NCBI RefSeq assembly: GCF_001746415.1
Contig: NZ_MEHJ01000001.1
Location: 3,493,001 to 3,557,000 of the forward strand
DNA from: Streptomyces agglomeratus
Lineage (GTDB): Bacteria > Actinomycetota > Actinomycetes > Streptomycetales > Streptomycetaceae
Direction of reading: 5' to 3'
DNA: 64,000 nucleotides
Both the position numbers and the translations under genes were made by a program. The notes under the pieces are model-generated. The model was given only the letters and a program-made list of their open reading frames with translations. It had not been told where the DNA came from and did not search any database. This document shows positions 51,965 through 55,515 of the stretch, piece after piece; positions within the stretch are counted from its first letter, which is position 1; every line of letters begins with the position of its first letter.

Positions 51965-53986
51965 GTGGACAGAGAGCTGTTCGGCCGCGAGGCAGTCCTC
52001 GACGGTCTCGCGCCACGGCTCATCGGCCTGCCTCCGCGCGGATTCCAGAAGGTGCCCTTCGAGCACCGCGACGACCTGCCCGCCGTGGTCCTCGCGGGCG
52101 GCCGCGGAATGGGCAAGACCGCCGTACTCAAGCGCCTGCACACCGGCTACAAGCAGCGCACGCCCGTCGCCCTCATCGACTGCGAGCGCCCGCAGTTCGC
52201 GGAACGCCCCGCCCAGCACGCGCCGTCCTGGTCGCCCGTCACCGAGGCCCTCGCCGAGCTCGGCGAACAGCTCGCGCCGCCCGTGCACGGCGCCGGGGCC
52301 GTGGAGTTCCCGCGGCTGGCCGCCGGCCTCCTCGCCGTGGCGAGCCTCGGCTGGCAGCCGCACGATGACGAGAACATCCTCGCCGAGGGCCTCCGGCTCG
52401 GCCTGCTGGTCGAGCCCGGCTCCCGCTGGCGCAACCAGACCCGCACCTGGCTAACGAAGGTCGTCGCCAAGTTCGCCGCCATGGCCTCGGGTGTGGGGCC
52501 GGGGCTCGACGTGGTCGTCGAGACCACCGTGGAGTCCCTGCTGGACGACCTGTTCAACCGGAGCCAGCGCTCCTCCGCCGACTGGTACGGGAACTACCCC
52601 GGCGCGGGCGGCAAGGCCAAGCGCGGCCTGACGCTGCTGGCGCTGCACTTCCGGCGCGGCAGTGAGCACCGGGTACGGGCCGAGCGTCACCTCGTCGGCG
52701 CGCTGCGGGCCGACCTGGACGCCGCCTACCAGGGAATGGGGCGGCTGCGCCGGGTGGGCCGCCCCGTACTCCTGATCGACAACGCGCAGGCGCCGCTCGG
52801 CCGCCGGCTCGTCGAGCCCGTACTCCGCGACCGCGCCGACGGCAAGCACGACCACGTGGTGCTCATCGCCGCCCTGCGCGGCCACGACCACCCCGCGCTG
52901 CGTCACGCCGTACGCCGGGCCCTCCCCGAGGTCCGGCACGAACTGGGCTGGCGGCGCGGCGGGGAGATCGCCTCCGGCGCCGTGATCGTCGGACTGACCC
53001 CGCTCGAACCCGAACACGTCCGCCAGTTCTTCGACCTGACCGACCCCCGCCAGCGCACCCGGCCCCGGCTGGCCCGCGCCGTGCACCGGCTGACCGGCGG
53101 GAGACCCGTGGGCGTCGACCTCCTCGCGCGGGCGGCCGGCCAGGACGAGCACCCGGAACGGTTCACGCCCGCCTCGCTGCTCGCCGCGCCCGTCACCCTC
53201 CGCGAGGACCGGGAGGGACAGGAGGTGGCGGCGGAGCTGCTCGCGCGGCTGGTGCCGCCGTCCCGGCTCGACTGGCTCACCGTGCTCGCCCCCGCGCACG
53301 ACGTGCCGTCGGCGGAGGCACTGGCCGCATCACGGCTGCCGGGCGAGGAGGGGCGTACGGGACTGGCCGCCGTACGCGACGTACGTACGCTGCTCGCCGA
53401 CGAGCACTGGCCCTCGGACCCGGCTCACCTGGTGGGCGACCCCTTCCTGCGCACGCTGCTGCTGCACCGGCTGCGCCACGGCGACCACGATGCGGGCCGG
53501 TGGCGGGCGGTGCACGAGACGCTGCGCGGCTATTACGCGGACCGCAGCGCCCCCCGCCGCCTCCACCACGAGCTGGCGCTGGGCGTCACCGAGGGCGCGG
53601 TGACGTATCTGCGGGAGACCTTCGCGCTCGCGGACGCCCGCGTCTGGCTGGACGAGCTGCGTTTCATCGCGTCGGCGCCGCACTTCGACGATCCGGACGT
53701 ACGGCGCCAGGTGGCCCTCGGCGGCGGCGACCCGTCGGCCGCGCCGCCCGGCGTGGACACCGCGCTCCACCTGCGCATCCGCCGACTGCTGTTCGCGGTG
53801 TGGCAGCTGACCGATCCGCTGGCCCTTCCGGACGACGAGGTGACCGAGAAGATGGGGTACGAGCTCGGGCTTCTTTCGGAGCTGCACAGCTCCGGCAACG
53901 AAGTCCTCTGGCAGGCTTCCCGCTCCTGGCCGCAGGCCGTGCGCGAGTGGCGCGATCCGGGCCACCGGAGCGGGGGCGGGTCATGA
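51965..53986 (+). CDS. STAND-type P-loop NTPase, partner of an anchored binding protein
   Basis: The 673-residue cytoplasmic protein has Walker A GGRGMGKTAV (about residues 45-54) and Walker B VLLIDNAQ (about 268-275). A sensor-1-like HVVLIAALRG (about 297-306), GLTPLEPEHVRQFF, and the STAND-type LTGGRPVGVDLLARA (about 376-390) follow. The rest is helical with no TPR, WD40 or catalytic effector domain I can recognise. It is therefore a signalling ATPase of the AP-ATPase/NACHT class rather than a transporter ATPase; ABC signature motifs are absent. Start GTG 51965. It overlaps the next gene by 4 nt (ATGA), suggesting a stoichiometric pair. Confidence 0.78.
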   Translation: MDRELFGREAVLDGLAPRLIGLPPRGFQKVPFEHRDDLPAVVLAGGRGMGKTAVLKRLHTGYKQRTPVALIDCERPQFAERPAQHAPSWSPVTEALAELGEQLAPPVHGAGAVEFPRLAAGLLAVASLGWQPHDDENILAEGLRLGLLVEPGSRWRNQTRTWLTKVVAKFAAMASGVGPGLDVVVETTVESLLDDLFNRSQRSSADWYGNYPGAGGKAKRGLTLLALHFRRGSEHRVRAERHLVGALRADLDAAYQGMGRLRRVGRPVLLIDNAQAPLGRRLVEPVLRDRADGKHDHVVLIAALRGHDHPALRHAVRRALPEVRHELGWRRGGEIASGAVIVGLTPLEPEHVRQFFDLTDPRQRTRPRLARAVHRLTGGRPVGVDLLARAAGQDEHPERFTPASLLAAPVTLREDREGQEVAAELLARLVPPSRLDWLTVLAPAHDVPSAEALAASRLPGEEGRTGLAAVRDVRTLLADEHWPSDPAHLVGDPFLRTLLLHRLRHGDHDAGRWRAVHETLRGYYADRSAPRRLHHELALGVTEGAVTYLRETFALADARVWLDELRFIASAPHFDDPDVRRQVALGGGDPSAAPPGVDTALHLRIRRLLFAVWQLTDPLALPDDEVTEKMGYELGLLSELHSSGNEVLWQASRSWPQAVREWRDPGHRSGGGS

Positions 53987-55515
53987 CGGACTGGTGGAGA
54001 CGGGTCTTCTGGTTCACGCCCCTGCGCAAAGGACTCACCGTGCTGCTGGCGGTCGCGGTGGTCGCCGGTCTCACGTACGGGGGCTACCGCGCAGCCAATC
54101 CGGACCTGTCCTGCGCGGACGGCGTGGCCCGCCCCGAGGAGGGCGCGGAGTGCGTGGGGGTCTCCGGGGACGGCTACGCCTTCGAGGTCGCGGCACTGAA
54201 GGACGTCGCCCGTGCCATCGACCGGGAGAACGACAGTCTGAAGGCCGGCGAGTACGCGACCGTGGCGGTGATGCTGCCGATCACCTCGACCGACAGCGGG
54301 ATGAGCACCAAGGTCCTCCACGAGCTCCAGGGTGCGTTCGTGCAGCAGTACGCGGCCAATCACGACTCCAACGAGCAGGTGCCCAAGATCCGGCTCGTGC
54401 TCGCCAACACCGGCAAGGGCAACCAGCACTGGCGCACGACCGTGGGGCGGCTCAAGGAGATGGTGGACGGGCCCGACCACCTGCGGGCCGTCTCCGGGGT
54501 CGCCACCAGCAGCGCCGAGACCAAGGCCGCCGTCAAGGAGCTGACCGGCGCCGGCATACCCGTGATCGGGACCACGATCACCGCCGACGACATCGCCAAC
54601 GGGCCCGGCGCGGACCCGTACCCCGGTCTCGCCCGCGTCTCGCCGACCAACCGCGACGAGGCCCGGGCCATCGCCCACTTCGGCGAGGTCGAGGCCAGGA
54701 AGGCCGTACTGGTCCAGGACACGCGACCCGGCGACCACTACACGGCCACCCTCAAGAAGGCTTTCGCCGACCTGCTCGACGACGCCCCGTACGAGCCGCA
54801 GCTGTTCACCTCCCCGCCCGACCCCACGGAGGAAGGCACCACCGCCAACACCTTCCGCCAGATCGCCCTGCTGCTGTGCGGCACCCGCGACGCGGACACG
54901 GTGTTCTTCGCCGGACGCCACACCCAGCTCCGGCAGTTCGTGAACGCGCTGGGCAAACGGGCTTGCCAGCACCGGAAGTTCACCGTACTGACCGGCGACG
55001 AGGGCTCCTACCTCGGCGCGGACGAACGGCTCGACAAGAGCGCGTTGGGCCGCAAGGTCGGCGTGCGGTACGCCTCGCTCGCCCACCCCGACGCGTGGAA
55101 GGAGCCCGGTGCCCCCAGGACGGGCGGCTCCCCGGCGGCGTACAAGGTGTTCACGGATCTGCTGGACAAGGCCGCCGACCCGGACATCGGGCCCATCGGC
55201 AGGACGTCGCTGCGGGACGGGCAGGCGATCATCGCGTACGACGCCATGGCCACGGCCGTGCGGGGCATCCGGGAGGCGACCGTCGAGAAGCTGCCGGAGA
55301 TCGGCGACGTCGTCACGCAGTGGCCGCAGATGAAGGGGCCGCTGAAGGTGGAGGGCGCGAGCGGCTGGATCTGTCTGGACAACCACGGCAACCCGTACAA
55401 CAAGGCGGTGCCGATCGTGGAGCTCGCGCGGGACGGCAGCCAGCGGTTCGTACAGATCGCGTGGCCCGAGGGGAAGGCCCCGGCTCAGGACTGTCTGCCG
55501 CCGGGTGACTCGTAG
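53983..55515 (+). CDS. Membrane-anchored type I periplasmic-binding-protein-like receptor
   Basis: The 510-residue protein has a short Trp/Arg-rich cytoplasmic N-terminus (WWRRVFWFTPLRKG) and one transmembrane anchor (about residues 17-35). An extracellular fold of the Leu/Ile/Val-binding (Peripla_BP) type follows: VAVMLPITSTDSG, VSGVATSSAETKAAVKELTGAGIPVIGTTITADDI, ARKAVLVQDTRPGDHYT and AIIAYDAMATAVRGIREA. Cys44 and Cys57 could form a disulfide. There is no lipobox and no adjacent permease, so it is probably a ligand sensor for the NTPase it is coupled to. Its end overlaps the convergent SRPBCC gene by 31 nt. Confidence 0.8.
   Translation: MTDWWRRVFWFTPLRKGLTVLLAVAVVAGLTYGGYRAANPDLSCADGVARPEEGAECVGVSGDGYAFEVAALKDVARAIDRENDSLKAGEYATVAVMLPITSTDSGMSTKVLHELQGAFVQQYAANHDSNEQVPKIRLVLANTGKGNQHWRTTVGRLKEMVDGPDHLRAVSGVATSSAETKAAVKELTGAGIPVIGTTITADDIANGPGADPYPGLARVSPTNRDEARAIAHFGEVEARKAVLVQDTRPGDHYTATLKKAFADLLDDAPYEPQLFTSPPDPTEEGTTANTFRQIALLLCGTRDADTVFFAGRHTQLRQFVNALGKRACQHRKFTVLTGDEGSYLGADERLDKSALGRKVGVRYASLAHPDAWKEPGAPRTGGSPAAYKVFTDLLDKAADPDIGPIGRTSLRDGQAIIAYDAMATAVRGIREATVEKLPEIGDVVTQWPQMKGPLKVEGASGWICLDNHGNPYNKAVPIVELARDGSQRFVQIAWPEGKAPAQDCLPPGDS

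Follow-up and report, generated by a model that had tools for sequence, protein, structure and literature searches.

A two-gene operon of Streptomyces agglomeratus, at positions 51965-55515 of the 64,000-nucleotide stretch analysed here (contig NZ_MEHJ01000001.1, positions 3,493,001 to 3,557,000; hereafter the window), encodes a STAND-like P-loop ATPase and a membrane-anchored binding protein. With a probability of roughly 0.7, the two proteins together form a split receptor at the cell surface, with the binding protein sensing outside and the ATPase serving as the inner signalling half. This interpretation is built on operon geometry, conservation, fusion of both parts into one chain, the lack of a linked LivH-type permease, and module swaps. 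Because known signalling modules replace the inner half while the topology stays constant, the binding protein is read as a receptor ectodomain and the ATPase as its signalling half.

The ATPase gene (51965-53986; GTG start, 673 residues) and the binding protein gene (53983-55515; 510 residues) lie on the forward (+) strand, as do all features of the pair given below, and share an ATGA stop-start overlap at 53983-53986. The initial annotation had recognised a P-loop STAND-like ATPase joined by this overlap to a one-helix-anchored protein with the Leu/Ile/Val-binding-protein fold, and that observation is confirmed.

Signalling Modules in Place of the ATPase

A search of the class with the binding protein (394 genomes, E ≤ 1e-12) gave matches in 79 genomes and 22 of 137 genera. 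Thirty-nine loci outside the genus were picked by hand, so the proportions of partners among them are not frequencies. They include 11 pairs (L115 by tblastn), 13 STAND-like fusions at E < 0.01, three of which (L132, L137, and L122) reach just 2e-4 to 7e-3, and six loci without a partner class (L123, L127, L128, L134, L142, and L145).

Other modules occupy the ATPase position elsewhere, each fused to the same binding domain, which stands behind one transmembrane helix. Ser/Thr kinase (Pkinase) fusions are found in L116 and L118 (E = 1e-47 and 1e-45), TIR fusions (TIR_2) in L135 and L141 (2e-34 and 3e-8), and a DUF4062 fusion in L129 (1e-13). The effector-associated domain EAD1 is fused at four loci (L139, L140 with two genes, L143, and L144), with seven Pfam matches in six different genes at 4e-5 to 3e-13. 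The same layouts recur in database proteins, with EAD1 in P0241 and P0246 and a kinase in P0245 (precomputed Pfam) and P0247, and the named database relatives of these loci belong to Frankia and Pseudofrankia. The kinase fusions L116 and L118 nest within the clade of STAND pairs as sister to the pair L121 (Shimodaira-Hasegawa approximate likelihood ratio test, SH-aLRT, 96), and by a quick method the kinase label takes two changes on the 80-row binding protein tree, one of them within that clade. The arrangement first proposed from the window, a sensor outside and a signalling protein inside, is supported by the kinase, TIR, EAD1, and DUF4062 fusions.

In L135 and L141, TIR, a predicted transmembrane stretch, and the ectodomain form one bacterial polypeptide with a Toll-like layout. 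The four genomes with EAD1-binding protein fusions carry 9 to 26 EAD1 matches each; S. agglomeratus has 0, and an EAD1-coupled effector in its genome was rejected. Kaur et al. 2020 (PMC7159879) describe EAD1 as an adaptor through which conflict systems bring in their effectors.

Pairing Across Genomes

Among 150 genomes of the genus (matches at E ≤ 1e-5), the ATPase is present in 66 and the binding protein in at least 113. The binding protein directly follows the ATPase in 65 of 74 merged ATPase loci; the other nine comprise two at contig ends, one incomplete match roughly 2 kb away from a binding protein, a weak ATPase match (genome G117, locus L026), and five loci (L022-L025 and L028) with no binding protein gene downstream. 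Genes were called at 81 loci, comprising 80 from the genus, seven of them picked for lacking a binding protein gene, and the window. A binding protein gene is present in 74, as 51 two-gene loci and 23 single-chain forms, and an ATPase relative lies directly upstream on the same strand in 51 of the 51 two-gene loci. This neighbourhood survey of the genus agrees with the tight coupling that the initial annotation had suggested.

Across all loci, 69 short binding protein genes have a same-strand upstream gene, which is the ATPase in 61. These 61 pairs are closely spaced: 33 overlap or touch, 23 are at exactly -4, and 52 fall within 50 bp. The eight other cases are L115, where the gene caller missed the ATPase that tblastn recovered, the second binding protein of the tandem L117, three EAD1 fusions called short (L140 twice and L144), L127 and L134 without assignment, and the LivK control L150. 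At 80 named loci fetched by the binding protein, its gene was called in 79, with an ATPase upstream in 78; the single exception is truncated by its contig, and 76 of the upstream ATPases have a Walker A motif. The ratio of nonsynonymous to synonymous substitution (dN/dS) is 0.12-0.30 against the six closest named relatives and 0.37-0.70 against three remoter ones; for the latter, synonymous distances are distrusted in such GC-rich DNA. ATPase and binding protein distances correlate across the 61 pairs (Spearman 0.59) and across the 40 pairs left after removing the window's orthologous locus (Spearman 0.31), and in both sets 0 of 2000 permutations were as high.

Two tandem binding protein genes follow one ATPase in L117 (4582-10012), possibly a heteromeric receptor. 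In L031, an open reading frame judged by eye to be protein-kinase-like (10035-11810) lies upstream of a STAND-binding protein pair on the same strand.

Single-Chain Forms

A second copy in the S. agglomeratus genome (L002/L082; 933 residues) joins a STAND-like N-terminal part, a transmembrane stretch, and a binding protein in one polypeptide. When 46 fused N-terminal parts were searched with the ATPase profile (E-values from a small database), strong matches came from L148 (5e-22), L149 (2e-17), L131 (1e-16), and L082 (6e-13). Among genus fusions, 22 of 23 match at E < 0.01, with L098 failing, and P0248, P0251, P0254, P0257, and P0267 match at 9e-18 to 9e-15. Significant matches stop at profile position 363 or before, so the fused forms lack the C-terminal half of the ATPase.

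The STAND-like domain lacks a P-loop in the own-genome copy and in many other one-chain forms; GK[ST] is found at this site in 0 of 38 fused N-terminal parts checked, a few of which have weak STAND kinship only. A P-loop-less fused form occupies a conserved place in L037, L038, L083-L087, and L089-L092, beside genes that we take to be HemW-, HrcA-, and DnaJ-like.

The ATPase

The ATPase contains Walker A GGRGMGKT (52097-52120; residues 45-52), in which G45, G48, G50, and K51 are invariant in 63 sequences, and Walker B VLLIDNA (52766-52786; residues 268-274), in which D272 and N273 are invariant in the same set. The motif LTGGRP (53090-53107; residues 376-381; G379 and P381 invariant) is presumably GLPL-like, a name assigned, like the motif roles, from general knowledge of the family. 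Arginine R305 (52877-52879), conserved in at least 90% of the 63 sequences, is a candidate sensor-1 arginine, a role we assume from the STAND literature. The ATPase has the Walker A, Walker B, GxP/GLPL-like motif, and candidate sensor-1 arginine looked for in a STAND NTPase.

A helical insert of about residues 153-196 (52421-52552) precedes Walker B, and the region aligned to it includes a predicted transmembrane stretch in many fused forms. A membrane hairpin here was set aside as speculation: hydropathy exceeds 1.6 in 23 of 37 fused forms, yet in just 5 of 61 pairs.

The C-terminal half (53132-53983; residues 390-673) is predicted to be almost all-helical. NLR-like chains are the best structural match of the ATPase model, with the alignment reaching model residue 575. 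Searches of this half, a Pfam scan among them, gave no catalytic domain. An effector hidden there, as once suggested, therefore finds no backing. No N-terminal effector domain was found in the ATPase either. The NCBIfam and PADLOC models of Avs defence proteins are not reached (NCBIfam Avs4, 11.3 bits against a cut-off of 1500; PADLOC Avs4, E = 0.068), and a known defence system was rejected, with no NCBIfam or PADLOC match close to cut-off.

Of the 61 pairs, 38 retain an intact P-loop, among them 20 of 20 in the window's clade of the tree. It is degraded in the other 23: the lysine is kept and the Ser/Thr lost in 10, and the lysine is lost in 13. This distribution needs eight changes on the tree, six of them forced by starred branches, and the changes are read as losses. 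A nucleotide switch, which the initial annotation had assigned to the NTPase, is plausible for the window's pair, where Walker A is intact throughout the clade, but it does not generalise to the degraded pairs or to the 38 fused N-terminal parts checked, in which no P-loop was found.

The Binding Protein

The binding protein has a single N-terminal transmembrane helix (54019-54096; model helix residues 13-38), followed by an extracytoplasmic Leu/Ile/Val-binding-like domain (54100-55512). Structure comparison gives it the Leu/Ile/Val-binding fold of type-I periplasmic binding proteins. The window's protein reaches no Pfam cut-off, and some of its relatives do pass one (P0226 and L125); the own-genome LivK (L150) matches Peripla_BP_6 at 3.7e-48. 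Profile comparison with this LivK gives a probability of only 2.3, so the kinship to Leu/Ile/Val-binding proteins rests on structure and on the Pfam-passing relatives. Residues S176, Y253, and D339 align with LivK invariant positions and may contact ligand. Since that contact role is itself assumed, we only infer that the ligand is small and perhaps amino-acid-like.

Proposed Mechanism and Alternatives

In the proposed mechanism, the binding protein would hold its ectodomain outside on one helix and close on an external small ligand; the fold comes from the model. The ATPase would dock where the binding protein presents its short N-terminal tail and its helix, and closure would change its nucleotide and oligomer state, as in NLR-type ATPases. 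In the weakest step, the ATPase would act on an unlinked partner or the membrane and evoke a stress or conflict response.

Several observations weigh against this interpretation. The degraded P-loops of 23 of 61 pairs mean that nucleotide switching is not required family-wide, and the STAND fold call comes without any Foldseek match under E = 1e-3. An ATPase without a following binding protein gene occurs at full length in L022, L023, and L024 and shortened in L025 and L028, and the distance correlation of the two proteins owes part to common descent. The domain swaps all fall in one family code (f87), were hand-picked, and include none from the window's genus. EAD1 in L140 depends on upstream starts, one gene scoring 24.3 bits against a cut-off of 24.2, and P0243 and P0244, apparently the L140 genes, begin later and show no EAD1. 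Lastly, L034 has an ABC-type permease-like gene (LivM match 5e-5), third downstream of the pair and on the other strand.

The last point touches the very unlikely alternative of an orphan uptake module, in which the binding protein would serve an ABC permease from another part of the genome, with the ATPase driving or controlling uptake. The Leu/Ile/Val-binding fold, the ABC-type genes three to four genes from the pair in L034, and the source name "ABC transporter substrate-binding protein" of many homologues (among 120 listed of 536 matches) would fit it. Downstream of the own-genome LivK of L150, however, lie two genes for proteins with 8 and 10 predicted transmembrane helices and two P-loop genes, an operon that we read as livHMGF, whereas LivH homologues (E ≤ 1e-3) number 0 in the pair loci and are confined to L150. 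The LivM-type gene of L150 has a weak match in L063 (2e-4), about 4 kb from the pair, and the ATPases of L150 match ordinary ABC ATPases in L034, L053, L077, L079, and L100. Of the 238 genes lying no more than two genes away from a pair, 25 are transmembrane-rich, most of them the CcsB-like gene on the opposite strand. Pfam gives no ABC_tran match in the ATPase at E ≤ 1; on this and on the absence of LivH homologues, an ABC transporter subunit was rejected, in line with the earlier view that the pair is no transporter. Neither outcome named beforehand as refuting that view, placement of the ATPase in an ABC family or LivH-type permeases at the pair loci, was obtained. A transport motor should also not tolerate P-loop degradation, and relatives carry kinase, TIR, or EAD1 in the position of the ATPase.

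A MalT-like STAND transcription regulator that the binding protein keeps at the membrane until ligand binding frees it is unlikely: Pfam finds no DNA-binding domain in the ATPase, the match to 8bob has a root-mean-square deviation of 15.5 over 332 residues, and the STAND-like part stays membrane-tethered in fused forms. Least probable is a lineage-specific envelope or developmental role in which the binding fold has lost ligand binding. Patchy presence in the genus and the cytochrome-c-biogenesis-like genes shared by the window and L042-L061 agree with such a role; the dN/dS of 0.12-0.30 among close relatives and the alignment of S176, Y253, and D339 with LivK invariant positions argue against it.

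Genomic Surroundings

The pair is flanked, at window positions 45933-49683 and 56105-60339, by UbiX/UbiA/UbiD-like (menaquinone-type) genes and a cytochrome c biogenesis-like cluster; these labels, and the CcsB- and ResB-like ones, are our presumptive assignments. The window and the 20 sampled loci L042-L061 all adjoin the same cytochrome-c-biogenesis-like genes, and CcsB- and ResB-like genes are present in every one of L042-L061 and likewise in L022-L025 and L028, where the ATPase without a binding protein sits at the same chromosomal place. These and the other shared neighbours look like housekeeping genes and were rejected as effectors, and no linked third gene recurs among distant pairs. 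A small convergent gene (55485-56042) overlaps the 3′ end of the binding protein gene by 31 bases and has relatives at 15 of the 81 loci, counting the window.

Relation to Known Systems

The nearest published precedent for an extracellular periplasmic binding protein (PBP) coupled to a conflict system is the two-gene EACC1 system ("System 4") of Kaur et al. 2020 (PMC7159879), in which a transmembrane and extracellular PBP part is reported behind a caspase-like domain; Kaur 2021 (PMC8195603) was likewise among the nearest papers. The EACC1 system resembles the pair in being actinobacterial, two-gene, and membrane-associated, with second-gene variable domains that include, in reported instances, transmembrane helices followed by an extracellular PBP domain, and STAND NTPases. 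It differs in what stays constant, namely EACC1 together with a caspase-like or cyclase domain. In Pfam at E ≤ 1, EACC1, caspase, and cyclase are matched by neither window protein, EACC1 presumably being among the Pfam models. The excerpts of Kaur 2020 (PMC7159879) name no STAND-PBP gene pair, and this precedent makes the idea less novel but leaves the novelty of the pair untouched. No description of the pair, or of TIR or EAD1 joined to such an ectodomain, was found in the open-access literature searched; the family comparison (VIA-align) speaks for the families listed and leaves room for others.

With STAND/NLR ATPases such as CED-4, plant NLRs, and Avs, the ATPase shares a P-loop domain, a GLPL-like motif, and a helical C-terminus. 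It differs in that its likely sensor lies outside the cell on a separate protein, that its N-terminus yielded no effector, and that the P-loop is expendable in several clades. The ectodomain fold is that of the Leu/Ile/Val-type ABC uptake system of L150, whereas the pair has no linked LivH-type permease or ABC ATPase. Relatives of the binding protein are predicted to resemble Toll-like receptors and receptor kinases, with a ligand domain, one transmembrane helix, and TIR or kinase inside; this is an analogy of layout only, as the ectodomain differs and no homology is implied.

Many of the listed homologues named as ABC transporter substrate-binding proteins are probably receptors. The chances are about even that an actinomycete receptor family joins this ectodomain through a single helix to interchangeable TIR, EAD1, kinase, DUF4062, and STAND modules, with the Streptomyces pair as its split form, and that its NLR-like ATPase answers an external small molecule rather than an intracellular invader and can work in some lineages without a nucleotide site. 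Since TIR, kinase, and EAD1 are exchanged at this position in nature, chimeras could test this receptor logic directly. Bacterial NLR-like ATPases are chiefly known for sensing inside the cell, and conserved partnership with an extracellular domain for small molecules would open a surface input to them.
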